Origin: Candidatus Bathyarchaeum sp.
GTDB lineage: Archaea; Thermoproteota; Bathyarchaeia; Bathyarchaeales; Bathyarchaeaceae
NCBI GenBank assembly: GCA_003096235.1
Contig: PIXT01000021.1
Coordinates: forward strand, 1-18,443
DNA: 18,443 bases
Direction of reading: 5' to 3'
Shown here: positions 3,759 to 17,521 of the stretch, piece after piece
Layout of the letters: each line of letters starts with the position of its first letter
Position numbering within the stretch: position 1 is the stretch's first letter
The notes under the pieces: model-generated
What the model was told of the DNA's origin: nothing
Seen by the model: the letters and a program-made list of their open reading frames with translations, nothing else
Database searches by the model: none
Made by a program: the position numbers and the translations under genes

Positions 3759-4349
3759 ATGGCTGTTGAAAAAGAGATGAAAGAAAAACAGAGAAGGGTT
3801 GCTTGGGGAATCACAGGCAGCGGAGACCGACTTGGTGAAACAATAGAAGCTATGAAGCAAATCAACAAGCAATACCAAGATGATGTTAGAATAACAGTTT
3901 ATCTTTCGAAAGCTGGAGATCAAGTAGTAAAATTTTATGGATTATTTAAGGGAATGAAAGAAAACTTTGAGAAAATCAGACTTGAAGCAAACTCTAACAT
4001 TCCGACTCTTGCGGTTCAACTACAAAGCGGCAAGATTGAATTCTTGTTGATTGCCCCAGCGACATCAAACACAGTTGCAAAACTTGCAAATGGGATATCA
4101 GATACGCTTCTGACTAACGCGGCGATAATGGCGTTGAAAGCCTTTGTTCCGGTTTATGTTATGCCGTGTGACTACAAGGAAGGCGTGACAGTTACGCAGC
4201 TCCCAGACGGCAGCGACATGAAGATACGTGTGAGAAAAGAAGATGTTGCGCAGACCAAAAAGTTGGCTGCCATGGATGGCGTCTTTATTTTGGAAAAGCC
4301 AGAAGATATTGCTCAGGTTTTTCAAAAATATTTTAGGCCTGAAAAGTAG
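3759..4349 (+). CDS. afpA: Archaeoflavoprotein AfpA (MJ0208-type flavoprotein)
   Basis: 196 residues resembling the AfpA/MJ0208 archaeal flavoprotein group, related to the HFCD/pantothenate-decarboxylase flavoproteins. Visible family features are W-G-I-T-G-S-G-D near the start (flavin phosphate loop), S-K-A-G around residue 50, the long A-P-A-T-S-N-T-V-A-K-L-A-N-G-I-S-D-T block (about 100-117) and V-M-P-C-D. Archaeoglobus AfpA takes electrons from ferredoxin and passes them to Isf; a methanogen relative (DmrX) reduces dihydromethanopterin. The gene lies 12 bases after the Isf gene, so an AfpA-Isf electron pair is the natural reading. The start could also be the ATG at 3777; ATG 3759 is kept. 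T-runs after the stop probably end the transcript. Confidence 0.85.
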   Translation: MAVEKEMKEKQRRVAWGITGSGDRLGETIEAMKQINKQYQDDVRITVYLSKAGDQVVKFYGLFKGMKENFEKIRLEANSNIPTLAVQLQSGKIEFLLIAPATSNTVAKLANGISDTLLTNAAIMALKAFVPVYVMPCDYKEGVTVTQLPDGSDMKIRVRKEDVAQTKKLAAMDGVFILEKPEDIAQVFQKYFRPEK

Positions 4350-4359
4350 GAAGAAACTG

Positions 4360-4373
4360 TTTTTTGCTTTTTT
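4360..4373 (+). terminator. Oligo-T terminator after afpA
   Basis: Two runs of six T (4360-4365 and 4368-4373) start 11 bases after the afpA stop. Archaeal RNA polymerase commonly terminates on such U-tracts without a hairpin, and the next gene has its own promoter. Confidence 0.4.
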
Positions 4374-4443
4374 ATGGCAGATTTTCGCTGGTTGACTGAT
4401 TTTTAGTGTATATTTTTTGTTTTAGATGATTGTGTATGGGAAG

Positions 4444-4506
4444 GTTTATCTAGGATCATGTAAATGTGGAATTACGAGAGGTCGTAGTCTACGAGTGCTC
4501 GTAATT
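4444..4506 (+). promoter_or_regulatory. Promoter and nested palindromic operator of the dtxR-feoA-feoB operon
   Basis: A TATA-like GGTTTATCTA at about 4443-4452 would set a start near 4474. Over that point lies a 37-base nested inverted repeat: AATTACGAG (4470-4478) pairs perfectly with CTCGTAATT (4498-4506), and inside it CGTAG (4483-4487) pairs with CTACG (4489-4493) around a central T at 4488. Binding there would block initiation. Since the first gene encodes a DtxR-type repressor, an autoregulatory, iron-dependent operator is the simplest reading; the site itself is inferred. Confidence 0.6.
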
Positions 4507-4523
4507 TCAGGCGTGTGAAACAC

Positions 4524-5207
4524 ATGAACCCTAAAGGAAAAACAGTCTCAAACCAAGCCGAAGAATACCTTGAAGCAATCTACCGCCTAGAAAACAAAGT
4601 AGGCTTCGCAAGAACCATGGACCTTTCCAGACAATTAGGCGTAGTCCCCGGTTCAATCACCAACACCATAGAAAACCTACAAAAAAAAGGGCTAGTCAGT
4701 CATGAGCCATACAAAGGAGTCAAACTAACTGACAGCGGACGAAAAATCGCTTCAAGCATCCTAAGAAGACACCGCCTAGCAGAACGACTACTAACAGACA
4801 TACTACACCTAGACTGGAGCGAAGTGCACGACCCCGCCTGCAAACTAGAACACGCCCTTTCACCAGAAATAATCAAACCACTAGAGAAAGCGTTAGGGCA
4901 CCCAAAAAGATGTCCTCACGGAAACCCGATACCCACAAACTGTGGAGGAATCTTTGAAGAAGAAACAGTAGCCCTCACTGAACTCGACGCCAAAACCAGT
5001 GGAGTTATTGTAAAAATAACTGAAGAAAAAGCTGAGATGCTAAAACAGCTTACTAGATTAAAACTTACACCCGGAGAAAGAGTAATAGTTGAGCATGTAG
5101 TTCCTACAGGTTCTGTCACAATCAACGTTAGGAACAAAAGATGCACAATCGAGCATAATGTGGCATCAATAATCTACGTTAAGAAAAATGAAGGAGAAAT
5201 GAACTGA
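4524..5207 (+). CDS. DtxR/IdeR-type metal-dependent transcriptional repressor
   Basis: About 227 residues with the three DtxR domains: winged helix-turn-helix (about 1-70), dimerisation domain with R-R-H-R-L-A-E-R-L-L (about 81-90), and a C-terminal SH3/FeoA-like domain (about 145-220). The primary metal site in the dimerisation domain reads A-C-K-L-E-H (C106, E109, H110), with the cysteine seen in iron-type DtxR/IdeR rather than the acidic residue of MntR; the position of DtxR Met10 is Glu14, so the match is not pure. The conserved G-N-P-I-P motif is present. It lies directly before feoA and feoB, so iron-responsive repression of its own operon is likely. ATG 4524 is preferred over GTG 4515 because a GTGTGA sits five bases before it. 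Confidence 0.9.
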   Translation: MNPKGKTVSNQAEEYLEAIYRLENKVGFARTMDLSRQLGVVPGSITNTIENLQKKGLVSHEPYKGVKLTDSGRKIASSILRRHRLAERLLTDILHLDWSEVHDPACKLEHALSPEIIKPLEKALGHPKRCPHGNPIPTNCGGIFEEETVALTELDAKTSGVIVKITEEKAEMLKQLTRLKLTPGERVIVEHVVPTGSVTINVRNKRCTIEHNVASIIYVKKNEGEMN

Positions 5208-7502: not shown

Positions 7503-8699
7503 CTAAGTTTTTGTTACGATCTTCTTTGGATATGTTATCATTGTCCAGAATGGATAGCCTGAGATTTTCTTGGAAATCGACTTGGGTGTTATTGCGTTTG
7601 TTGGGCAGTAGTGGGCGCATGCTAGGCAGTGTGCACAATCGGTGCTTCCGAAGGGGTCGTTTAATCCAGTGATGGTGACGGTGTTGCTTCCTCTTCTGGC
7701 AAAGTTTATGACTTTTTGACCTGACAGATTGGCGCAAGCTCGAACACATCGTCCACACAGGATACAGCGGTTGGGGTCTTTGACAAGAACCTCGTTGGAA
7801 TCATCTACGGTTTCATTCTTTTTGGGAAGCTTGAATCGGTTTTCTGTGATTTTGTATCTGCGCATCCAGTAACGTATATCTCTACTTTGCTGTATTTCGT
7901 CTCCACATTCAGCGATAATCATCTGCAGAATCGACTTTCGAAGACTGGTTATTTCTTCGTCATCTGTTGTTACAATCATGCCTTCTTCGATCTGAGTGCA
8001 GCAGGATGGAATTAGACCTCGTTTGCCTTCAATCTTCACCAGACACATTCTGCAGGCTCCAATAGAACCTAAGCTGGAGTCGTAGCACAGATGTGGTATT
8101 CGTATTCGGTTAGCCGACAGCTCATCTAGCAGGTTAGCGTCTTTCTTTACTTCGAGAGGTTTGCCATCCACGGTTATGGTGATCTTTTCGGGGTTAGGCT
8201 GTTTGTCAGCATCAAAGAACTTGGGATACAAATTGAAAGTTTCTACTAGCTTGTTTAGAGTGTAACCTTCTGTTTCGGGAGCTAGACCTGTAGTGGGTAG
8301 AGGAGAAGTTAGGATTGGACCCTTTTTGTTGCTGAAGTTTCCGGAGCCAAACGTCTTCGCAGTTCCTATTACCTTCTTTTTGGGAAACACGGTTTTTACA
8401 CATTGATAACCAATTTCACATGTGAGAAGGATTATTGTGGTAGCATCGTTGAAGATGTCTTCGTGGGCTTTCTTGTGTTTCTTGGCGAGGTTAATCTGGC
8501 AGGATTCGCTTACGAGCTCCTTTTTGAGGACAGTGTAGCCATCTTCTTTTAGCAAATCTTCTAGGACAGACATCTTTTCCATTCCGGCGATGCCACAGTG
8601 CTTTACACACGTGTCACAGCTCCAGATTACAATTTTGTCGTCCGGGCTTAAGTTTCGTTTAAGTTCATCATATGATAAGGAACGAACAGAGATTATCAT
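7503..8699 (-). CDS. MetV-like domain fused to NuoG/HymC-like ferredoxin subunit
   Basis: 398 residues, last gene of the redox operon. Residues 1 to about 125 form a MetV-like (MTHFR C-terminal type) domain with C28, C31, C35, C67, C94 and C100. From about 172 a NuoG-type N-terminus follows: a 2Fe-2S domain (C205, C216, C219, C233), then a segment where the usual H-x3-C-x2-C-x5-C cluster is missing (only C265), then two 4Fe-4S motifs (C312, C315, C318, C322 and C355, C358, C361, C365). There is no molybdopterin or hydrogenase catalytic domain. It should relay electrons between the NuoEF-like pair and the MetV-like parts. ATG 8699 is preferred over GTG 8708: it forms an ATGA overlap with the gene before, has GAGGTG six bases upstream, and aligns the cysteines with the paralogue. 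Confidence 0.8.
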   Translation of the reverse strand: MIISVRSLSYDELKRNLSPDDKIVIWSCDTCVKHCGIAGMEKMSVLEDLLKEDGYTVLKKELVSESCQINLAKKHKKAHEDIFNDATTIILLTCEIGYQCVKTVFPKKKVIGTAKTFGSGNFSNKKGPILTSPLPTTGLAPETEGYTLNKLVETFNLYPKFFDADKQPNPEKITITVDGKPLEVKKDANLLDELSANRIRIPHLCYDSSLGSIGACRMCLVKIEGKRGLIPSCCTQIEEGMIVTTDDEEITSLRKSILQMIIAECGDEIQQSRDIRYWMRRYKITENRFKLPKKNETVDDSNEVLVKDPNRCILCGRCVRACANLSGQKVINFARRGSNTVTITGLNDPFGSTDCAHCLACAHYCPTNAITPKSISKKISGYPFWTMITYPKKIVTKT

Positions 8700-9178
8700 G
8701 CTGAGCACCTCACTTTGATTTTTTCGCCAACAAGTGGCTCTCCAGTGTTTATGCGGTATTCTTTGCCCATTTCGGATTCGTGATTCTTGTAGGGCATCAC
8801 TACTTTGAAGATTTCTTTGTCAGTATCAGTCAGAACCAAACCGATGTCTTCTGTGACCTGCACTACTTTCTTGTCAGCAAAGTTGCGGGTAAAGCAGGAC
8901 CAACCCGCAGAACAAGAAAGAACAATGATTGTGTTAGCTTCTAGATCGAGCTTTGCCTCTCTAAGGATAGGCTCTGAGCAAGCATACAGTATGACGGCTT
9001 CGTCGGTAACGTTGTAGCCATCACGTATTAGCCTTAGACCTAGTTCGTTGAGTTTGTTTATTCCACCATTTCCACAGGTTCTAGCACAAGTATTACAGCT
9101 GATTATAGCTATCTTGTCTTCTTTTTTGTCAAGTTTCTTGATTATTTCTTCATATTCCTCAATTTTTGAAAAGATCAT
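8696..9178 (-). CDS. MetV-like cysteine-rich protein
   Basis: 160 residues resembling the N-terminal part of MetV, the small subunit of acetogen methylene-tetrahydrofolate reductase: a hydrophobic strand, then S-C-N-T-C-A-R-T-C-G (C28, C31, C35), A-C-S (C67) and S-C-S-A-G-W-S-C (C89, C95). The C-terminal ferredoxin-like cysteines of full MetV are absent; one cysteine remains near the end (C158). The same cysteine positions occur in the N-terminal domain of the next gene, so the two are paralogues. They probably hold a metal or an Fe-S cluster. The ATG overlaps the nuoF-like stop by four bases (ATGA), and GAGGG lies just upstream, so it is coupled to the NuoF-like subunit. MetF itself is not nearby. 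Confidence 0.7.
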   Translation of the reverse strand: MIFSKIEEYEEIIKKLDKKEDKIAIISCNTCARTCGNGGINKLNELGLRLIRDGYNVTDEAVILYACSEPILREAKLDLEANTIIVLSCSAGWSCFTRNFADKKVVQVTEDIGLVLTDTDKEIFKVVMPYKNHESEMGKEYRINTGEPLVGEKIKVRCSA

Positions 9179-10449
9179 TGACAGCAGCCCTCCTCAAGTT
9201 TCACAGAGTTTTCACAAATCCTTCCAGCTACCTTTTCGATTGCACCAAAAGGACACGCCTCTAAGCAAGTTCCACATTTGATACACTTTGTTAGATCAAT
9301 AGTAGGTGTAGAGCCTTTTTCTCCTGAAATCGCCTGCACCGGACAACTTTTAACACACACCATACAGCCTTTGCATTTTTCGGAATCCATACAGTAGGTT
9401 ACAAGTGGTTTGCAGACTAACGCTTCACATTTCTTGGATTCTATGTGATCAGCATATTCTTTCTCAAAGTACCTAAGAGTTGTCAGTACTGGGTTTGATG
9501 CAGTTCTGCCTAGTGCACATAAACAGGCTTTTTGCATTACATCGCTGGTTTCTTTCAACAATTCTATGTCGTCAGCGGTGCCTTCACCGTTAGTGATCTT
9601 CTTTAAGGTCTCATGCATCAGCCGTGTTCCTATCCGTCCAACAGAGCATTTACCACAGGATTCAGCAGTTGTGAACGACAAAAAGAACCGTGCCATATCC
9701 ACCATGCAGTTAGTGTTATCCAGCACAACCATACCGCCAGAACCCATTATGGCACCTGCACTTTGAAGACTATCATAATCCATTGGCAAATCAAATCTGT
9801 CTACGGGAACGCAGCCACCGCTTGGTCCCCCAAGCTGAACAGCTTTGATGTTTTTGCCTTTTGGAGGTCCTCCAGCAATGTCATACAACAGCGTCTTTAT
9901 TGGAGTCCCAACTGGAACTTCGTAAGCTCCAGTTCTTGTTACAGCACCTGTTACACAGTACATCTTTGTTCCTTTACTTTTCTCGGTGCCCATTGCAGCA
10001 AATTTTTCCCAGCCTTCAGCCATGATTGTTGCTACATGCGCAAGCGTTTCAACATTGTTTATGATTGTGGGCATTCCCCAAAGACCCTTAACAGCCGGAA
10101 ACGGAGGTCTCTGGATAGGATTGGCTCTCTCTCCCTGTATTGCAGCGATCATTGCAGTTTCTTCACCACAAACGAACGCACCAGCACTCAGAAAGACTTC
10201 TATGTCAAAACAGTAACCGCTACCAAGAATATTTCCGCCCAAGAAACCTTTCTCTCTGGCGTCTTCAGCAGCTTTTAGCAATCTTTTAGCGGCTAACGGT
10301 TTTTCTGCACGCACAAACACAAAGCCCTTGTTTGCCCCGATTGTGTGCCCTGCTATGATTAAGCCTTCCAAGATTCTGTGAGGGTCAGATTCTGCCAAAA
10401 GCCGATTCATGAATGCTCCTGGGTCACCTTCATCACAGTTTGCGATCAT
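9175..10449 (-). CDS. NuoF/HymB-like NADH-binding subunit, C-terminal fragment
   Basis: 424 residues covering most of a NuoF/HydB-type subunit. It has the N-C-D-E-G-D-P-G-A-F segment (4-13) and A-G-A-F-V-C-G-E-E-T-A (89-99) for NADH and FMN, a SLBB-like middle, the N3 cluster region, and a C-terminal ferredoxin with two 4Fe-4S motifs (C359, C362, C365, C369 and C389, C392, C395, C399). The N3 motif, normally C-G-K-C-x-P-C, reads C265-G-K-C268-S-V-G271, so its third cysteine is lost; C309 and C311 follow. The frame is continuous with the N-terminal fragment through a TAA and 13 further codons. The ATG has no ribosome binding site and lies inside the conserved core, so it is not a natural start: this is the back half of a broken gene. 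Confidence 0.8.
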   Translation of the reverse strand: MIANCDEGDPGAFMNRLLAESDPHRILEGLIIAGHTIGANKGFVFVRAEKPLAAKRLLKAAEDAREKGFLGGNILGSGYCFDIEVFLSAGAFVCGEETAMIAAIQGERANPIQRPPFPAVKGLWGMPTIINNVETLAHVATIMAEGWEKFAAMGTEKSKGTKMYCVTGAVTRTGAYEVPVGTPIKTLLYDIAGGPPKGKNIKAVQLGGPSGGCVPVDRFDLPMDYDSLQSAGAIMGSGGMVVLDNTNCMVDMARFFLSFTTAESCGKCSVGRIGTRLMHETLKKITNGEGTADDIELLKETSDVMQKACLCALGRTASNPVLTTLRYFEKEYADHIESKKCEALVCKPLVTYCMDSEKCKGCMVCVKSCPVQAISGEKGSTPTIDLTKCIKCGTCLEACPFGAIEKVAGRICENSVKLEEGCCQ

Positions 10450-10488
10450 GTATTTTACATCGCTTTGCTGTTGTTTGCAGATGTTCCA

Positions 10489-11037
10489 TTATATCCAAGT
10501 TGGAAAACCTGCGCCTCCTCTGCCTCTGAGGTTTGCTTTCTTTAGTTCTTCGATTGTTTCTTCTGGGGTCATACTCAAACATTTTTTGAGTCCTTCATAG
10601 CCTCCAACAGCTACGTATTCATCTATTGATTCGGGGTTAATGATTCCAAAATTGCCCGAAAGCCATCTGACCTGATTCTTCCACACATCAAGCTCATCTA
10701 GAGAAGGAACACTTTCGCCGTCGATTTTTCCGGACCTGAATGCGTAAGCGCTTGAGTAGTCTTGATCTAAGTATTCGCGAATAATTTGTTCAACAATATC
10801 TGGGGTTACGTTAGCGTAAATCGTGGAGGGATATCCTTTCTTTGATAACTCAATCCAAGGATCAATAAAATCTAGCCCTACACAACCGACCGGAGTTACC
10901 TCAACATCTAAACCCATTGAGTCAACAACATGGTTTATACTCTGTAGAACTTCGTTAGCTCCTGCAGCAATTGTGCAGCTAGCCATTGGAACTCTGATTT
11001 TAAACCCTGTTTTACCATAGATTATTTCTTCTTGCAA
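10489..11037 (-). CDS. NuoF/HymB-like subunit, N-terminal fragment ended by in-frame TAA
   Basis: 182 residues: a thioredoxin-like N-terminus (about 1-90; C21 and C52, where the usual second cysteine of C-x-G-x-C is Asp), the linker typical of HymB proteins with [12 protein letters not shown], and the start of the FMN domain, G-R-G-G-A-G-F-P-T. In intact homologues this continues G-L-K-W; here it reads W-I-stop-W, with TAA at 10489-10491 in place of the lysine codon. Reading on in frame gives S-D-V-K-Y-M-I-A-N-C-D-E-G, exactly the family sequence. The TTG start overlaps the nuoE-like stop by 16 bases, with a GTGAT-like site upstream. Read as one gene with the downstream fragment, length would be about 620 residues, normal for the family. 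Confidence 0.75.
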
Positions 11038-11588
11038 ACTATCACTTTTCGTTTTGGTTCACTCTCCTGTTGTTTGGCTTTTTCTTTATATTCTGCCAAA
11101 ATTTTCTTCAATGCCTTCTGGTCAACATGACCATAAAGTCGCTGGTAACTACCTGTTTTATCAGTGACCATAATTACAGGCGCTAAACTACAACATCCAA
11201 AGCATCTTGCAGCCTCAAGGCTGAAAACTTTGTCTTTAGTAAGATGTTGATCATGCTTCAAATCGAGAAGCAGTTTGAGATGCTCAAAGTTGTCTGCGTT
11301 ACCTTTTGCGTGGCAACCTGTTCCCATACATACTTGTATCACATACATTCCAGGAGGCTGAAGCCTAAATTGATGGTAAAATGTTGCAACACCATAAACT
11401 TCACTGAAAGAAACTCCCAGATTAACTGCGACTTGTCTCAAACTTTCTTTTGGTAAGTATCCATATCGTTCTTGAACTGCTTGAAGCACCTGAATTAAAT
11501 CCTTTCGAACAGCACCTGTTGTGATCTTCAAAACGAACTGCTTCAGTTCAGTCTCTGCCGTAGATGGAAGAACTATAGATTTCTGCAT
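11022..11588 (-). CDS. NuoE/HymA-like 2Fe-2S thioredoxin-fold subunit
   Basis: 188 residues. The N-terminal helical bundle has R-Y-G-Y-L-P (41-46), and the thioredoxin-like domain has the 2Fe-2S ligands C87-x4-C92 (C-M-G-T-G-C) and C129-x3-C133 (C-F-G-C-C), with A-P-V after them, all as in NuoE/HymA. The last 25 residues are a Lys/Glu-rich tail longer than usual. NuoE sits next to NuoF in NADH-linked complexes and carries the N1a-type cluster. It begins 27 bases after the GcvH-like gene, with an A-G-G-G-G-G-T stretch before the ATG, and its end overlaps the nuoF-like start, so the subunits are coupled. All four ligands are intact, unlike the neighbouring NuoF. Confidence 0.9.
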
Positions 11589-11615
11589 TTGCTGGACCCC
11601 CTAGATTTTTCTGTA

Positions 11616-12152
11616 TTACAAAACCCTGAATGGAGATTTCTCTTGTTTTTCGAGCAATTTTTTGTATGTCTTCGCGGTGATGAGTTGGCTTAAATCACTT
11701 TTAGATTTAGGTGTAATAGTTACTATCCATCCATCATCGTAAGGACTGGCGTTTATGACGTCAGGGGTTTCCATTATCTGTTTGTTTATGTCAACTATTT
11801 TTCCGCTAATTGGGGCTATAAGATCAAACGCAACATACTCACAGCGCATATCATCAAGGTTTGCACATGGTCTTGCGTATATAGTGCCAAATACTTCTCC
11901 GACTTCAACGTCTTCACCGACTGTGGTGTTCTTGAAGATCTCTACTAGACCCACTTTTTCTCTTAGATGTTGTTGGGCATAATCTGTTACGCCAATTTTT
12001 TGATGACCTTCAACGGTATTCTTTACCCACATGTGAGTTTTAGTATAGTCTCTGTTAGTTTTAACACAGACTTCTTTGCCCTCACACTGGACAAGATAGT
12101 CGTTTTGGGCTGCATCTTCATCTGTTTTTAACATTGAAACGTTCTTGTACAT
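11616..12152 (-). CDS. GcvH-like protein lacking the lipoyl-lysine motif
   Basis: 178 residues, first gene of the redox operon. Residues about 36-150 have the glycine-cleavage H-protein fold: Y-T-K-T-H-M-W-V (36-43), G-V-T-D-Y-A-Q-Q-x-L (54-63), A-P-I-S-G-K-I (113-119) and N-A-S-P-Y-D-D-G-W-I-V (134-144). At the lipoylation hairpin, where true GcvH has E-S-V-K-A, the sequence is longer and reads A-R-P-C96 ... M-R-C104-E-Y-V-A-F-D-L, with no lysine. The N-terminal extension has C23 and C29. It therefore cannot be lipoylated at the usual place and is unlikely to serve in glycine cleavage; no gcvT or gcvP is present. A role within the NuoEF/MetV-like complex is inferred from the operon. Confidence 0.8.
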   Translation of the reverse strand: MYKNVSMLKTDEDAAQNDYLVQCEGKEVCVKTNRDYTKTHMWVKNTVEGHQKIGVTDYAQQHLREKVGLVEIFKNTTVGEDVEVGEVFGTIYARPCANLDDMRCEYVAFDLIAPISGKIVDINKQIMETPDVINASPYDDGWIVTITPKSKSDLSQLITAKTYKKLLEKQEKSPFRVL

Positions 12153-12187
12153 TTTTATCGTCTCAAGAATAGTAACATCAAAGAGGC

Positions 12188-12230
12188 GAGTATATACATT
12201 CTGTGATTAAAGTAACAAGGTATATATACC
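12188..12230. promoter_or_regulatory. Divergent promoters for the redox operon and the PhoU-family gene
   Basis: Two TATA boxes lie in the 120-base divergent spacer. TATATAC at 12191-12197 (read on the minus strand) would start the redox operon near 12168, some 15 bases before its ATG. The palindromic GGTATATATACC at 12219-12230 would start the plus-strand gene near 12250, ahead of its GGGAG ribosome binding site. Confidence 0.6.
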
Positions 12231-12272
12231 AACCACTACTGTAAATACAAATAAGATAAGAGGGAGAAAGCC

Positions 12273-13373
12273 ATGGAGTCCCGAAAAGTACAACGTGTTG
12301 GAGCCTCAAGCCTAGCGGTTTCACTTCCTAACGAATGGGTCAAAGAAGTGGGCTTGAAAAAAGGGCAACTAGTCTTCTTCAAAGAAGACGAAAGAAACAT
12401 ACTTCGAATAATGACCGCAGGACAAATAGAAAAACAGCCTGCTTCAACAGTTGAACTGAACGGAAACTTTTGTAAAGACCCAGAAATGCTAGGCAGAGCA
12501 CTAATGGGCGTATATTCCCTGGGGCATGACAGCATCAAAGTAGTTTCATCAAGCAGATTAACCAGCGAACAAGTGAACAAAATCAGGAACGTCACACGCG
12601 AACTGATGGGCATGGGCATCATGGAAGAAACACCGAATTCTTTGCTGATCCAATGCTCGATTGACGCAACAAAATTTCCAATAAATACTCTGCTTAGAAG
12701 GCTGTTCATAATTAGCTCAACAATGCACCGAGAAATGATAGATTCGTTGCCCAATTTTGATGTTGAACTCGCAAGCGAGGCAATACGTAGAGATAAAGAA
12801 GCATACACAATGTTTTGGGTAATAGTTCGCCTATTGAACAGCGGTCAAAGAGACAAAAGCGTAGCCAGCCAAATGGACATAGATAACCCATCTTTGATTA
12901 TTTGGTATCGCCTAATAGCCCAATATTTACGTCTCATTGCCGATTGGGCACATAAAACCGCGGAGAAAGTCGTTGCCTTAAACCAATCCAAAGAAAGGGT
13001 TGGAGAAGAATTACTACAAAAAATAATTGAAGTCAACGAACGCTCATATGGAATGTGCCACGAAGCAATAAACAGCTTCTTCTCAAGCGACATCCAAATG
13101 GCAAACAAAGCAATAGAAACATACCAAGAAATTCAGCGAACAGAAGAAATGCTGCAAGAAAGAGTGTGCAGTTCCGCTTATCTGCATGGAAAAAATTTTT
13201 CTGTAAGCAAATATTTCAAGGGCAAAAAACCGATAGAGGCTTGTGCCGTTGCTCAAATAAGCTTTCTTATTTGGGGTGCTCGAAGAATAGCTGAAATAGG
13301 TTCAGAAATAGCTGAAACTGCAATACATAGAGTCCTTTGTAAGGACACAAAGATGTGCAAAAGTCTGAAATGA
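12273..13373 (+). CDS. PhoU-family protein with AbrB-like N-terminal domain
   Basis: 366 residues. The first 47 are a SpoVT/AbrB-like swapped-hairpin domain (R-K-V-Q-R-V-G-A-S-S, then V-S-L-P-N-E-W-V and G-L-K-K-G-Q), typical of archaeal PhoU-like regulators. The rest is two PhoU-type helical bundles (about 120-230 and 235-350) with repeated acidic and hydrophobic helix faces. Such proteins are annotated as phosphate-uptake regulators, but no pst transporter is present here. Because it diverges from the redox operon across 120 bases, it may influence that operon; this is inference. The ATG is backed by AGAGGGAG. Four cysteines cluster in the last 70 residues, which is unusual but not a clear motif. 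Confidence 0.85.
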   Translation: MESRKVQRVGASSLAVSLPNEWVKEVGLKKGQLVFFKEDERNILRIMTAGQIEKQPASTVELNGNFCKDPEMLGRALMGVYSLGHDSIKVVSSSRLTSEQVNKIRNVTRELMGMGIMEETPNSLLIQCSIDATKFPINTLLRRLFIISSTMHREMIDSLPNFDVELASEAIRRDKEAYTMFWVIVRLLNSGQRDKSVASQMDIDNPSLIIWYRLIAQYLRLIADWAHKTAEKVVALNQSKERVGEELLQKIIEVNERSYGMCHEAINSFFSSDIQMANKAIETYQEIQRTEEMLQERVCSSAYLHGKNFSVSKYFKGKKPIEACAVAQISFLIWGARRIAEIGSEIAETAIHRVLCKDTKMCKSLK

Positions 13374-13400
13374 ACCCAGTCTAGACAAGTTAGTGCATAG

Positions 13401-13982
13401 TTAGCATTCAAGTGGACCTCGGTAGTAGCTCAATGATGGGCATCCAACACATTTTTGATCTTGAAATGATGGACAACCTTTACACTGGACACCACATGGA
13501 GCAACGTCGCCTTTTTCGCTTAGGGCGTCTGCCTTTAACGGTAAGAAGGGATAATGATGGACTCTTCCTATGAGATAGACTTCGGACCTTCGTATTCCTT
13601 CACCGCTCCTCAACGCACACTTTTCCATGCATTCGCTCTCAAGAGTGGCTTGGTCCTCCGCCATCACTAAAGCTATGAGATTATATCCGCCCATGGTTGT
13701 GAAGAAGTTGATGACGCGAGGGCATTTGCTGTAGCGCTCAATGATGTTTCTCATCGTTTGTGCACTTTCAATCTCTAGGAGAATCAATGCTAAACGCAAA
13801 TTTAGTTTACCCGTGTTTACGAGAGCTGAAATGTGAATTGTTTCACTCTTGAGCAGCTTATCAACTCTTTTTTTTGCGCCCAGACTAGTAAAGCCAATTG
13901 TTTCCCCTAAGGCCTTGAATGTTTTTCGTCCGTTAGTTTGGAGTTGTAGAATTAGCTTCCAGTCAATGTCATCTAAAGTCAA
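13401..13982 (-). CDS. Lrp/AsnC-type regulator with C-terminal cysteine-rich domain
   Basis: 193 residues. Residues 1-50 are an AsnC-type helix-turn-helix (D-D-I-D-W-K-L-I then a recognition helix around 32-45) and 52-145 a divergent RAM-like effector domain. The tail has C163-x3-C167-x2-C170, C178-x2-C181 and C193, in the pattern C-G-V-Q-C-K-G-C and K-C-V-G-C-P, which should bind zinc or an Fe-S cluster. A redox- or metal-sensing regulator is a reasonable inference. TTG 13982 is used because a TGA lies in frame just upstream and the helix-turn-helix begins at once. It diverges from the Mrp operon, with an inverted repeat between them. Confidence 0.8.
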   Translation of the reverse strand: MTLDDIDWKLILQLQTNGRKTFKALGETIGFTSLGAKKRVDKLLKSETIHISALVNTGKLNLRLALILLEIESAQTMRNIIERYSKCPRVINFFTTMGGYNLIALVMAEDQATLESECMEKCALRSGEGIRRSEVYLIGRVHHYPFLPLKADALSEKGDVAPCGVQCKGCPSFQDQKCVGCPSLSYYRGPLEC

Positions 13983-14042: not shown

Positions 14043-14075
14043 AGACAGAGCTTGAAAATTAAATGAGTGATTAAA

Positions 14076-14960
14076 ATGGAAAAACAAGCCGCTACCGAGA
14101 AAAGAATCGCGGAGTTCACTGAAAAAGACCAGAAACTCAAAAACAACATGAATCGCATCAAACACAAAATTGCTGTAATCAGCGGAAAGGGCGGCGTAGG
14201 TAAAAGCACAGTAGCAGCAAATCTGGCAATGGCTTTTGCGCTACACGGCTACAAGGACCGTGTTGGAATACTAGACGTTGACATACATGGTCCATGCATA
14301 CCAAAACTTCTTGGCGTGAAAGGAAAAAAATGCCAGATTTCGCCTCTAGGCGCTTTACCCGTAACAGGTCCCGAGGGAATCAAAGTTGTATCCATGGATT
14401 TTCTAGTACAAAGCCAAGAAACTCCAGTTGTCTGGCGCGGTCCATTAAAGATGCAGGTAATTAGGCAATTCTTATCAGACTTCATGTGGGGTGAACTTGA
14501 TTTTCTTTTCATTGATGCGCCCCCAGGAACTGGCGACGAGCCACTAAGCGTCATGCAGCTCATGCCAGAAATGGACGGCACAATCATAGTTACAATACCC
14601 TCAGAGGTTTCCGAGGACGTAGTAAAGAAGGCTGTGACGTTCTCCAGACAAATGCAAATACCAGTTATAGGCATAGTGGAGAACATGAGCGGTTTTGTTT
14701 GTCCAAAATGTGGCGAAGAAGTGAACATCCTTGGGGCAGGGGGCGGAAAGCGGATAGCTGAAGAGTTAAATGTTCCATTTCTGGGACAAATCCCAATAGA
14801 CCCAAAAATCTGTGAAGAAGCAGACAAGGGCATATCATTCATAAAGGGACATGTGGACTCGCCTGCAGCTAAAGCTTTCAAAGAGATCGTAAAGAATGTG
14901 GAAGATTTTTTGAAAAACAAAAAAGTGGAACAAAATTCAAACAAAAAGGAAACAAAATAA
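14076..14960 (+). CDS. Mrp/NBP35 family iron-sulfur cluster carrier ATPase
   Basis: 294 residues. A charged N-terminal helix (1-30) leads to the deviant Walker A G-K-G-G-V-G-K-S (37-44); D-V-D-I-H-G-P (67-73) and F-I-D-A-P-P-G-T-G-D-E (145-155) complete the nucleotide site. C209-P-K-C212 is the C-x-x-C that holds a bridging 4Fe-4S cluster between two subunits in ApbC/Nbp35 proteins. It delivers Fe-S clusters to apo-proteins. The C-terminus is Lys/Asn-rich. ATG 14076 is chosen over GTG 14067 because GAGTGA lies five bases before it. It opens an operon with two NifX-type and two MinD-type genes. Confidence 0.92.
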   Translation: MEKQAATEKRIAEFTEKDQKLKNNMNRIKHKIAVISGKGGVGKSTVAANLAMAFALHGYKDRVGILDVDIHGPCIPKLLGVKGKKCQISPLGALPVTGPEGIKVVSMDFLVQSQETPVVWRGPLKMQVIRQFLSDFMWGELDFLFIDAPPGTGDEPLSVMQLMPEMDGTIIVTIPSEVSEDVVKKAVTFSRQMQIPVIGIVENMSGFVCPKCGEEVNILGAGGGKRIAEELNVPFLGQIPIDPKICEEADKGISFIKGHVDSPAAKAFKEIVKNVEDFLKNKKVEQNSNKKETK

Positions 14961-14981
14961 AACAGGAGGAAATGATCAAAA

Positions 14982-15356
14982 ATGAAAATGTGTGTTTCAG
15001 CATCTTCAGGTAGTCTGGATGCAAATGTGGATTCGAGATTCGGCAGATGCCCATACTTTGTAATAATTGATTCTGAAACTATGGAGTTCAACGCCATTTC
15101 AAATGATTCTACTAATGCTGCACATGGAGCTGGAATTCAAGCCGCTCAGACAGTAGCAAATATGGGTGTAAAAGTGGTGATTACGGGTAACGTTGGACCT
15201 AATGCATTCAATGTTTTGTCTGCAGCAGGAATAAAGATTGTTACAGGAGCTTCGGGCAGCGTTAAAGAGGCTGTTGAGAAATACAAAACGGGTCAACTCA
15301 AAGAGATAAGTAATCCAACTGTTGGTGGACATTTCGGAATGGGCAGAGGACGATAA
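14982..15356 (+). CDS. NifX/NifB-type (dinitrogenase Fe-Mo cofactor family) protein
   Basis: 124 residues of the ribonuclease-H-like NifX/NifB C-terminal fold: V-D-S-R-F-G-R-C-P-Y-F (17-27), A-A-H-G-A-G-I-Q-A-A near 46-55, and V-K-E-A-V-E-K-Y (about 92-99). Members bind Fe-S or FeMo-type cofactors, but most, like this one, occur without nitrogenase and have no known client. The end is Gly/Arg-rich (G-H-F-G-M-G-R-G-R). AGGAGG at 14964-14969 precedes the ATG by 12 bases. It follows mrp by 21 bases and so shares its transcript. Confidence 0.88.
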   Translation: MKMCVSASSGSLDANVDSRFGRCPYFVIIDSETMEFNAISNDSTNAAHGAGIQAAQTVANMGVKVVITGNVGPNAFNVLSAAGIKIVTGASGSVKEAVEKYKTGQLKEISNPTVGGHFGMGRGR

Positions 15357-15406
15357 AATGTTGTTCAGTAAACATCAAAGGTCATGTAAAAGGAGGTGGG
15401 AGTGAA

Positions 15407-15781
15407 GTGAATGTGAGAATTGTTGTTCCAGTCTCGGATGAAAAAGGTATTGATGCCCAGCTTTCGCAACATTTCGGCAGGGCACCTTTCTATGCTATCA
15501 TCGATTTAGACGAGAAAGGTCAGGTTATAGGCAAAGGGACAATAGCCAACACAAGTGAACATTTTGGCGGTGTAGGTCTTCCACCTGACCGAATTTTGCA
15601 ATTGAAACCAAAAGCACTTGTTACATATGGTTTAGGGTCCAAAGCGTTGCAAATGTTCCAAGCTGCGGGAGTGGCTGTGTTGCGAACCGAGGCAAACACT
15701 GTCAAAGAAGTCGTTAATGCATACAATAATGGTGAGCTTCAAGAGCTAACACAGGGCTGTCATCACGCCCACAACCACTAG
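15407..15781 (+). CDS. Second NifX/NifB-type protein with His-rich tail
   Basis: 124 residues of the same fold as the gene before it: L-S-Q-H-F-G-R-A-P-F-Y (19-29), E-H-F-G-G-V-G (about 51-57), and T-V-K-E-V-V-N-A-Y-N-N-G-E-L. The C-terminus C-H-H-A-H-N-H could bind metal. Despite the shared fold the two proteins differ clearly, so they are old paralogues rather than a recent duplication. The GTG start at 15407 is set by AGGAGGTG at 15391-15398; an ATG at 15411 is in another frame. Confidence 0.88.
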   Translation: MNVRIVVPVSDEKGIDAQLSQHFGRAPFYAIIDLDEKGQVIGKGTIANTSEHFGGVGLPPDRILQLKPKALVTYGLGSKALQMFQAAGVAVLRTEANTVKEVVNAYNNGELQELTQGCHHAHNH

Positions 15782-15829
15782 AAAAGTTGCACAGCGGACG
15801 TTATAGTATCAAAAAAGAAGATGAACTGA

Positions 15830-16654
15830 TTGATTATAACCGTTGCCAGTGGAAAAGGCGGAACAGGAAAAACAACAGTCGCTGTTAATATGGCGCTGTC
15901 TTTAGAAAACGTGCAACTCCTTGACTGCGATGTTGAGGAACCAAATTCCCATATTTTGTTACACCCTAAAATCGATGAAACAGAGCCAGTACATACTAAA
16001 GTCCCAGTGGTCTCTGAGGATTTGTGTGTTTACTGCGGAAAATGCTCAAAGTTTTGCGCCTACAATGCCCTGTTTGTTGCACCAAAAACGGTTATGGTTT
16101 TTCCCGAATTATGTCACAGCTGTGGTGGTTGCGCACTGGTCTGTCCCAAAAACGCAATAACCGAAAAAGAAAGACAAATAGGCGTTATCAAAAAAGGAAA
16201 AGCAAACGGTGTTGAGATAGTTTACGGGGAACTTAATGTTGGAGAAGCAATGGCTGTCCCACTCATACGGGCAGTCAAAAACCAAATGAAAAGCAACAAA
16301 AACGTTGTGATAGATGCACCACCCGGAACTGCTTGTTCGTTGGTTGCATCAGTGCACAAAACGGACTACTGCATACTTGTAACAGAACCAACACCCTTTG
16401 GTTTACATGACTTGAAGATAACGGTCCAAGTCTTAAAAGACCTTAAAGTTCCTATGGGCGTTGTAATAAACCGTGCAGGGCTCGGCGACAGAAAAGTCTA
16501 CGAATACTGCGAAAAAGAGAACATTCCATTGTTGTTGGAGATTCCATTCGACAAGAAAATTGCGGAGCTTTATTCTCGTGGAGTACCATTCGTGGCAGAG
16601 ATGCCCGAGTGGAAAGATAAGTTTCTGGAAATCAGGGACAAAATAAAGAGGTGA
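15830..16654 (+). CDS. MinD-like P-loop ATPase with inserted 2[4Fe-4S] ferredoxin
   Basis: 274 residues. The deviant Walker A is G-K-G-G-T-G-K-T (8-15). A ferredoxin domain is inserted after the first strands (C66, C69, C72, C76 and C95, C98, C101, C105), and I-D-A-P-P-G-T-A (about 161-168) forms the second nucleotide motif. Such MinD/Fdx proteins occur in pairs beside NifX-type and Mrp genes in anaerobes and presumably couple ATP hydrolysis to Fe-S electron or cluster handling; no precise reaction is known. The start is TTG 15830, forced by an in-frame TGA three bases upstream and by the strand that begins the fold. There is no good ribosome binding site. Confidence 0.88.
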   Translation: MIITVASGKGGTGKTTVAVNMALSLENVQLLDCDVEEPNSHILLHPKIDETEPVHTKVPVVSEDLCVYCGKCSKFCAYNALFVAPKTVMVFPELCHSCGGCALVCPKNAITEKERQIGVIKKGKANGVEIVYGELNVGEAMAVPLIRAVKNQMKSNKNVVIDAPPGTACSLVASVHKTDYCILVTEPTPFGLHDLKITVQVLKDLKVPMGVVINRAGLGDRKVYEYCEKENIPLLLEIPFDKKIAELYSRGVPFVAEMPEWKDKFLEIRDKIKR

Positions 16655-16660
16655 AAGAGC

Positions 16661-17521
16661 ATGGCAAAAGAGATTAACGTTTTAAGTGGAAAAGGTGGAA
16701 CAGGTAAAACAAGTGTGACTGCTTCGCTTGCAGTTTTAACCAAGAGCACAGTTATGACAGACTGTGACGTAGATGCGCCAGACCTTCATATGTTATTGAA
16801 GCCTGAGGTGCTGGAGACACAAGAGTTCAAAGCATCCAGAGTTGCTGTGATAGATCAAGAAAAGTGTGTCCAATGTGACAAATGTGAAGAGCATTGTAGA
16901 TTCGGCGCCATAAACAAGCATACTATTGATCCTGTTTTATGTGAGGGCTGCGGCGTTTGCGCATATATTTGTCCGGTGGCAGCAATAGAGCTTGAAAAAA
17001 GAGTTTCTGGTTATGCATTCATCTCAAAGACCAATTATGGTCCAATGTCCCATGCGTTATTGAATCCGGGTGAAGAGAATTCGGGTAAACTTGTGGCGCT
17101 GGTGAGGCAAAATGCCAAAAAAGTTGCTGAAAAAGAAAACTGCGAGTTAATTATTAACGATGGACCTCCTGGAATTGGTTGCCCTGTGATAGCGTCTTTG
17201 GGTGGAGTTGACATTGGCTTGATAGTTGTGGAGCCAACGTTGTCGGGAATTCATGACATGGAACGTGCGTTAAGTTTGCTTAATCACTTCAAGATATCTG
17301 CTCTTGTTTGTGTGAACAAGTATGACATAAACGAAGAAAACACAGAACGAATAGTCAAGTTTTGTGTGTCTAATGGCGTGAAAGTTGTTGGAAAGATACC
17401 CTTTGACCAGATCGTCACAGAAGCTATGGTAGCAGGAAAGCCCATCATTGAATATGCGCCAGAAAGTAGGGTTGCACAAGCCATTAAAGATATGTGGGAA
17501 CAAACAGTAGAACATGTCTAG
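16661..17521 (+). CDS. Second MinD-like P-loop ATPase with inserted 2[4Fe-4S] ferredoxin
   Basis: 286 residues of the same architecture as the preceding gene: Walker A G-K-G-G-T-G-K-T (10-17), ferredoxin insert with C69, C72, C75, C79 and C94, C97, C100, C104, and a second motif I-N-D-G-P-P-G-I-G-C where the partner has I-D-A-P-P-G-T-A-C. The two are diverged paralogues and probably form a heterodimer, since MinD-type ATPases work as dimers across the nucleotide. The gene starts 6 bases after its partner; the GAGGTGA ribosome binding site contains the partner's stop codon, so translation is coupled. Confidence 0.88.
   Translation: MAKEINVLSGKGGTGKTSVTASLAVLTKSTVMTDCDVDAPDLHMLLKPEVLETQEFKASRVAVIDQEKCVQCDKCEEHCRFGAINKHTIDPVLCEGCGVCAYICPVAAIELEKRVSGYAFISKTNYGPMSHALLNPGEENSGKLVALVRQNAKKVAEKENCELIINDGPPGIGCPVIASLGGVDIGLIVVEPTLSGIHDMERALSLLNHFKISALVCVNKYDINEENTERIVKFCVSNGVKVVGKIPFDQIVTEAMVAGKPIIEYAPESRVAQAIKDMWEQTVEHV

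Follow-up and report, generated by a model that had tools for sequence, protein, structure and literature searches.

A conserved gene cluster of Bathyarchaeia joins NuoEF-like subunits to paired MetV-type domains and a GcvH-fold protein without the lipoyl lysine

The gene cluster and its distribution

The stretch of DNA analyzed here (the window, 18,443 nucleotides [nt]) spans positions 1 to 18,443 of contig PIXT01000021.1 of Candidatus Bathyarchaeum sp. (GenBank assembly GCA_003096235.1). On its minus strand, from position 12152 to position 7503, lies a cluster of five genes encoding, in order, a GcvH-like protein, a NuoE-like protein, a NuoF-like protein, a MetV-like protein, and a MetV/NuoG fusion. 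The first gene (11616..12152) encodes a 178-amino-acid (aa) protein of the GcvH fold that lacks the lipoyl lysine (PF01597, E = 6.8e-25). The second (11022..11588) encodes a 188-aa [2Fe-2S] subunit of thioredoxin fold resembling NuoE, HydC, and BfuC (PF01257, 2Fe-2S_thioredx, E = 5.4e-41), in which the cysteine motifs CMGTGC and RCFGCC can be read from the sequence. The NuoF/HydB/BfuB-like subunit (9175..11037) consists of a flavin mononucleotide (FMN)/NAD(H) domain, an SLBB domain, a 4Fe-4S domain, and a C-terminal 2x[4Fe-4S] domain. Its frame is broken by one in-frame TAA at 10491-10489, within the FMN-binding loop (GFPTWI*W), and the longer piece matched Complex1_51K (PF01512, E = 1.9e-29), SLBB (PF10531), NADH_4Fe-4S (PF10589), and Fer4. 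The fourth gene (8696..9178) encodes a 160-aa protein that resembles the N-terminal domain of MetV, has conserved cysteines at positions 28, 31, 67, and 89, and has no Pfam match. The fifth (7503..8699) encodes a 398-aa fusion of a second MetV N-domain-like region (about residues 1-140) to the N-terminal part of NuoG/HydA (Fer2_4 [PF13510] and Fer4); the ATG at 8699 is its likelier start, since homologues begin with MIIS, and no catalytic domain was found in it. The nearest NCBIfam models were those of NuoE, NuoF, [FeFe]-hydrogenase A / HoxU, and GcvH, with every score under the curated cutoff.

An earlier note on this DNA described five genes linked by stop/start overlaps. There are five genes, and three of the junctions overlap, by 16, 4, and 4 nt; the fourth, between the GcvH-like and NuoE-like genes, is a gap of 27 nt. 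The same note counted NuoF as one gene; a single TAA splits the frame, and the corresponding codon is AAA (Lys) in all five archaeal relatives that cover it.

A search for the fusion at E ≤ 1e-90 covered 256 genomes from the class to which G001, a Candidatus Bathyarchaeota metagenome-assembled genome (MAG), belongs; at least six of them have it, the match in G565 being partial. Five of these six genomes have the whole gene set; in the sixth, G565, the cluster is cut at a contig end that leaves the fusion alone. G447, G450, and G614 (loci L092, L094, and L095) have the full order on a single contig, with a 77-aa open reading frame (ORF) inserted between the GcvH and NuoE genes in G614. G446 (L091 and L143) and G001 (L097 and L144) each carry the complete set on two contigs, which presumably adjoin. 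The order is thus not unique to the window, and because it is conserved in other genomes the cluster reflects more than chance. No hydrogenase, formate dehydrogenase, MetF, or gcvTP gene was read among the ORFs beside the cluster, either in the window, as the earlier note had it, or at L092, L094, and L095.

Homologues of the fusion extend beyond these archaea, with 338 matches at E ≤ 1e-3. Among the best 120 of the 338, P0002-P0048 were 73-93% identical to the fusion, P0049-P0064 were 51-57% identical, and P0065-P0116 were 41-48% identical, except for P0115, a 79% fragment; names within this last group include Acetothermia, Peptococcia, Spirochaetia, Clostridium, and Desulfobacterales. Three bacterial loci (L003, L098, and L107) hold a four-gene module of NuoE, NuoF, MetV-like protein, and fusion. 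Where the gene upstream of this module could be read, at L003 and L107, it does not encode a GcvH. The fusion was found in at least 2 of the 398 genomes of the phylum of G003, G003 itself being one and G160, with a match over 226 positions, the second; the MetV-like protein was found in 2 of the 247 genomes of the order of G003 (G003 included). The distribution search gave no match in 113 genomes of the class of G657, a set without a positive control, and one match in 296 genomes of the phylum of G663, which was a true NGPCGG MetV. A contig scan with patterns shared with hydrogenases returned 80 loci, three of which (L001-L003) match the fusion from residue 4; the remaining 77 match it only from residue 130 or later, mainly over the NuoG part.

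The GcvH-fold protein

The GcvH-like protein had 268 homologues at E ≤ 1e-3. A break runs through the best 120 of these: P0121-P0179 form a clade with the window protein, and the rest are ordinary GcvH proteins at 34-43% identity. The two groups were aligned, the clade being represented by 59 database proteins, 5 genome copies, and the window protein (65 in all, some possibly duplicates). At the column of the lipoyl lysine, which in a working H-protein lies in an ESVKA-type hairpin, lysine occurs in 0 of these 65 and in 69 of 69 ordinary GcvH proteins. The lipoyl hairpin of the window protein is replaced by one that is 11 residues longer (RPCANLDDMRCEYVAFDL). Once the cut sequence P0179 was excluded, 61 of the 64 complete loops of the clade contained no lysine and 3 had it at other positions; a cysteine pair is present in 51 of the 64. 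The AlphaFold2 model of the protein (pLDDT 83) had its best target-normalised TM score, 0.93, with the E. coli H-protein 3ab9, and as modeled the protein keeps the H-protein fold. Because the lysine is missing at the lipoyl place, the protein should not be able to work as an H-protein.

Among the 256 genomes searched, the clade is sharply confined to those with the cluster. Its profile matched at E ≤ 1.1e-78 in exactly 5 of the 256 genomes, all of them positive for the fusion, and the next match was at 6.8e-31; the five are the fusion genomes minus G565, where the cluster is cut. Ordinary GcvH is present in all six fusion genomes, and the 8 of its 10 copies that were aligned (at least one per genome) all carry the lipoyl lysine. 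Since ordinary, lysine-bearing GcvH is also found in all six genomes, the sequences identify the GcvH-like protein as a paralogue that goes with the proposed complex and not as the cell's H-protein. The loss of the lipoylation lysine suggests that it would act as a fixed adaptor or substrate mimic and not as a mobile lipoyl carrier. Elsewhere in G614, at three similar loci (L137, L138, and L139), GcvH (with a FEAVK motif) is paired with a small ferredoxin-like ORF and with ORFs that look zinc binding.

The electron-transfer subunits and the proposed enzyme

The intact NuoF of L094 found its closest PDB chains in 9bov_B, 9n5u_B, and 8oh5_B, followed by NiFe-hydrogenase subunit B and HydB chains. 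We take 9bov and 8oh5 to be Sporomusa-type (Stn) enzymes and 9n5u to be the NfnABC transhydrogenase; the PDB listing names them only partly. The window encodes the BfuB/BfuC domain set, namely, the four NuoF families given above, all in the longer piece, and PF01257 in NuoE, on our assumption that the InterPro numbers of the Bfu definition correspond to these Pfam families. The Bfu family is defined by domain content (Schut et al. 2022, PMC9304861), and the parts of that paper drawn on here describe bifurcating BfuB proteins as having a B2 cluster with a histidine ligand that is missing in nonbifurcating homologues; in NiFe-Bfu the ligands are C438, C476 or Thr, H525, C531, and C536. When these positions were placed by residue offset on the 9bov_B alignment, the Cys, His, Cys, and Cys ligands of B2 were found in all six archaeal NuoF proteins, and the fifth place was Thr in five and Val in one (G614). 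The C-terminal ferredoxin-type domain is present in the five of six archaeal NuoF proteins that reach the end; in the window it lies downstream of the TAA. From these sequence features, the archaeal enzyme may bifurcate electrons.

The two MetV-type regions of the cluster resemble one another and true MetV. The small MetV-like protein aligned by hhalign to one true NGPCGG-type MetV (probability 97.2%, E = 3.3e-11, 112 columns), and its family aligned to the fusion family at 99.7% (E = 4e-27). By these alignments, the small protein and the N terminus of the fusion are paralogues that form a pair. PF12225, the NGPCGG domain, gave no match at E ≤ 0.01 on either protein; in the true MetV at L095 it matches residues 107-201, in the second half of the protein, at 4.4e-33. 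The label "MetV-like" given in the earlier note therefore describes a true homology, but one that, as far as the profiles reach, is limited to the N-terminal four-cysteine domain of MetV. The four cysteines are present in 89-90 of 91 sequences of the small protein (one Phe, otherwise gaps) and in 111-117 of 120 fusion homologues (the best 120 of 338; the remainder gaps), and they probably form a site that holds an Fe-S cluster or Zn. The NuoG part of the fusion has one [2Fe-2S] and two [4Fe-4S] motifs. Two other genes were noted behind the fusion at L095: one (12143-13537) for a protein with [4Fe-4S] and FAD/NAD(P) domains, and a solitary true metV (NGPCGG; 14902-15651) on the other strand with no metF beside it.

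With moderate confidence, we propose that the cluster encodes a Bfu-like enzyme, a soluble oxidoreductase of NAD(H) and ferredoxin that has a MetV pair as its outlet and a lipoate-less GcvH as adaptor, the five proteins presumably forming one complex that bifurcates or confurcates electrons. NuoF, with FMN and a C-terminal ferredoxin-docking domain, would form the NAD(H)/ferredoxin core together with NuoE. Electrons would run through the [2Fe-2S] and two [4Fe-4S] clusters in the NuoG part of the fusion to the two paired four-cysteine sites of MetV type, carried by the fusion and by the small protein, and from these sites to a third substrate. In these archaea the likeliest such substrate would be a protein-bound dithiol/disulfide, for example, the ordinary lipoyl-GcvH of the same cells. 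Of the two halves of the earlier proposal, an NAD(P)H-linked ferredoxin or one-carbon (C1) oxidoreductase, the ferredoxin half stands as one reading, given the Bfu-type NuoF with its 2x[4Fe-4S] domain and B2 ligands; the C1 half does not.

The suggestion of a lipoyl protein, which is a guess, was made because of a gene row in three Bathyarchaeia genomes and a proposal for Culexarchaeia. G446, G447, and G450 have a row of genes for LipS2-like and LipS1-like proteins, an ordinary GcvH, a CoA-disulfide-reductase-like flavoprotein, VhuG, VhuA, and HdrA (L133, 1045-11830; L134, 2206-13081; L135, 1-9124). The two LipS copies tested, from G450 (LipS2) and G446 (LipS1), scored over the cutoff; the families of the flavoprotein, VhuG, VhuA, and HdrA were tested for G450. 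HdrA in this row bears a VhuD-like C-terminal end. In G447 and G450 (L133 and L134) two further ORFs were read as HdrC and HdrB, and in G446 (L135) the contig ends inside HdrA. Such a row suggests that an Hdr-VhuAG complex has a lipoyl protein of its own as disulfide partner, and the portion of the Culexarchaeia paper that we cite proposes GcvH as a possible disulfide carrier for HdrB-type complexes. In G001 and G565, ordinary GcvH adjoins ORFs read as GcvT and GcvP.

In a bolder version of the proposal, the cluster represents a new bifurcating or confurcating class of enzyme in Bathyarchaeia. Paired MetV-type Fe-S domains would link NADH and ferredoxin to a disulfide carried by a protein, and the lipoate-stripped GcvH would serve as a permanent docking subunit. 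We regard this version as doubtful. If it were true, the NADH and ferredoxin pools would be tied to the lipoyl-GcvH/HdrA-VhuAG row of the three genomes, with a lipoyl protein replacing the disulfide of coenzymes M and B (CoM-S-S-CoB).

Several observations weigh against the proposed oxidoreductase. The CxxCxxC motif of NuoF reads CxxCxxG in all six archaeal proteins, and the N-terminal GCxGxC motif reads GCxGLD in all six that cover it; going by related PDB structures, we take these motifs to be the B1 and B5 ligands. Because both are altered, the archaeal enzyme is filed as a Bfu-like variant, not as a standard Bfu member. PF10588, the His/Cys3 cluster domain of NuoG, was listed for none of P0001-P0064, which include the archaeal fusions, whereas it was listed for 50 of the 52 proteins in P0065-P0116 (best 120 of 338 in both cases). 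In all three bacterial NuoF proteins (L003, L098, and L107), the C-terminal ferredoxin domain is missing along with the B2 Cys and the B2 His. A bifurcating type of core is therefore not common to every module, and from its sequence the bacterial one looks nonbifurcating. No clear GcvH was found in G003 and G160, half of the four bacterial genomes with the module, which weakens lipoyl-GcvH as a general substrate; the two PF01597 matches in G003 are marginal, covering about 30-77 of 122 positions, and one of them, when read, resembles a biotin-carrier protein. No gene for a substrate enzyme was found linked to the cluster, the NuoF of the window is interrupted as sequenced in its source population, and the adaptor role presupposes that the GcvH-like protein is a member of the complex, which we infer.

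An alternative that we consider unlikely is that the cluster is the electron-input module of a methylene-pterin reductase, with NuoEFG and the MetV domains feeding a MetF-type barrel encoded elsewhere, as in X-type or type III (RnfC2-MetV-MetF) methylenetetrahydrofolate reductase (MTHFR). The MetV-domain homology would fit, as would the X-type order, NuoEFG beside metFV, that the cited part of PMC8515935 reports from Desulfobacterales and Chloroflexi. MetF is present in the bacterial module genomes G003, G758, and G160, in which PF12225 MetV was undetected, and G614 has two MetF proteins (PF02219), each adjoining a true MetV; among the 10 genomes searched, PF12225 scored over the cutoff only in G614 and the bacterial G002. 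However, PF02219 was undetected in the other five of the six fusion archaea (G446, G447, G450, G001, and G565), which are MAGs and possibly incomplete, an absence that is weak for each MAG and stronger over the five. The C-terminal domain of MetV is missing from the cluster, the MetF at L108 adjoins an ORF read as methionine-synthase-like, and the X-type layout of metF and true metV beside nuoEFG was not seen in the window, L092, or L094. Mer (TIGR03555) had no match over the cutoff in any of the six fusion archaea. In G447 (L174) a Mer-type N-terminal part is cut by the contig end (244.8 bits, 193 of 325 positions), and this genome, the only one of which this can be said, probably has another methylene reductase. 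In G446 (L175, contig C224, 1232-1561) the C-terminal end of a Mer stands isolated (144.4 bits, 110 positions), its N-terminal part being absent from the contig upstream; the other Mer matches in the six genomes are weaker, below the cutoff, and like those in most controls. The earlier note's reading of MetV and GcvH as two signs of one-carbon chemistry finds no support, given the missing lipoyl lysine and the undetected MetF and true MetV in five of the six genomes.

A still less likely alternative is a direct NADH:lipoyl-protein oxidoreductase that replaces dihydrolipoyl dehydrogenase (L-protein) without ferredoxin coupling. It would account for the GcvH-fold subunit of the archaeal operon, for the clear GcvH of all six fusion-bearing archaea and of two bacteria, G758 and G002, and for a lipoate-protein ligase gene (3970-4983) directly upstream of the module at L003. 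That ligase gene, however, lies in G003, one of the two bacterial genomes without a clear GcvH, and of the three bacterial loci L003 alone shows the link: L107 does not have it, and L098 has a run of N upstream in place of readable sequence. The archaeal NuoF also retains its ferredoxin domain, and a CoA-disulfide-reductase-like flavoprotein (family tested in one genome) already stands beside ordinary GcvH in three genomes.

It is improbable that the cluster is decaying or nonfunctional, with the TAA in NuoF marking a loss of function in the window lineage. This is the one in-frame stop, the other four frames are open, and the codon specifies Lys in five archaeal relatives; the contig offers one sequence only, and its TAA may be a base error or a real mutation. 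Very improbable is a diaphorase module of a hydrogenase or formate dehydrogenase with its catalytic subunit encoded elsewhere: NuoE, NuoF, and the N-terminal part of NuoG are the usual diaphorase set and VhuAG-HdrA-like genes occur in three genomes (families tested for G450), but those VhuAG genes have their own HdrA with its VhuD-like C terminus, the MetV pair occupies the place of the outlet domain, and ORF reading found no catalytic gene beside the L092, L094, and L095 clusters or the L003 and L107 modules.

The GcvH-like gene of the window has a divergent neighbor on the plus strand (12273..13373) that encodes a protein with MazE/AbrB-type DNA-binding and PhoU domains (PF04014 and PF01895). 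The two genes are neighbors not only here but also in all five relatives whose contig reaches that side (L092, L094, and L095 by BLAST; L143 and L144 by the N termini read), even in the distant G614 and G001 lineages. The product of the AbrB/PhoU gene is probably regulatory and not a subunit. Farther along the window, positions 14067-17521 hold two small ORFs named by eye as NifX/NifB-like and genes named likewise as Mrp/MinD-type ATPases, two of which have ferredoxin motifs; these genes were also matched by BLAST in L094.

Comparison with known systems

To our knowledge, the balance of NADH and ferredoxin in uncultured Bathyarchaeia is poorly known. Were a MetV pair to serve as the outlet of a Bfu-like core, the Bfu family, for which the cited part of PMC9304861 counts 17 BfuB clades without assigned function, would gain a further module for a third substrate. 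MetV-type domains would then serve outside MetF, and a GcvH would have been retained, cofactor lost, as part of a fixed set of genes. The genes co-occur sharply enough for the question to be testable with one expressed operon. No paper combining Bathyarchaeia, MetV, and NuoF was found in the literature collection searched.

The cluster is most like the Bfu family (HydABC-like; PMC9304861), notably Nfn-Bfu/Stn. The archaeal NuoF and NuoE share the BfuB/BfuC domain set, the B2 ligands, and the C-terminal 2x[4Fe-4S] domain, and the fusion is BfuA-like in its [2Fe-2S] and two [4Fe-4S] motifs. It differs from standard Bfu enzymes in its altered B1 and B5 ligands and in a BfuA counterpart that has an N-terminal MetV domain and no catalytic domain. 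The MetV-like and lipoate-less GcvH subunits also set it apart from the third-substrate modules described in section 5 and the first part of section 4 of PMC9304861, where no such module is named; the term "MetV" was not found in the main text of that paper, and its unassigned clades may already hold the cluster.

With the MetV and RnfC2 proteins of type II, type III, and X-type MTHFR (PMC8760232 and PMC8515935, in the parts cited), the cluster shares the pair of MetV N-terminal domains, one of which is joined to a protein that handles NADH. The joining of a MetV domain to an NADH module has been described before, for RnfC2 of type III MTHFR (PMC8760232), which is compared here by that description. 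Unlike these reductases, the cluster is without the PF12225 domain and has no MetF in the operon, and none was detected in five of the six genomes. The GcvH-like protein has the H-protein fold of GcvH and of LbpA of the sHdr pathway (PMC6067878), but LbpA keeps the lipoyl lysine according to the cited part of that paper, as do the 69 ordinary GcvH proteins, whereas the window clade has it in 0 of 65 members and the window protein a hairpin 11 residues longer. Judged by sequence, three features appear to be new: a lipoate-less GcvH with sharp co-occurrence, a Bfu-like NuoF with altered B1 and B5 ligands, and paired MetV N-terminal domains.

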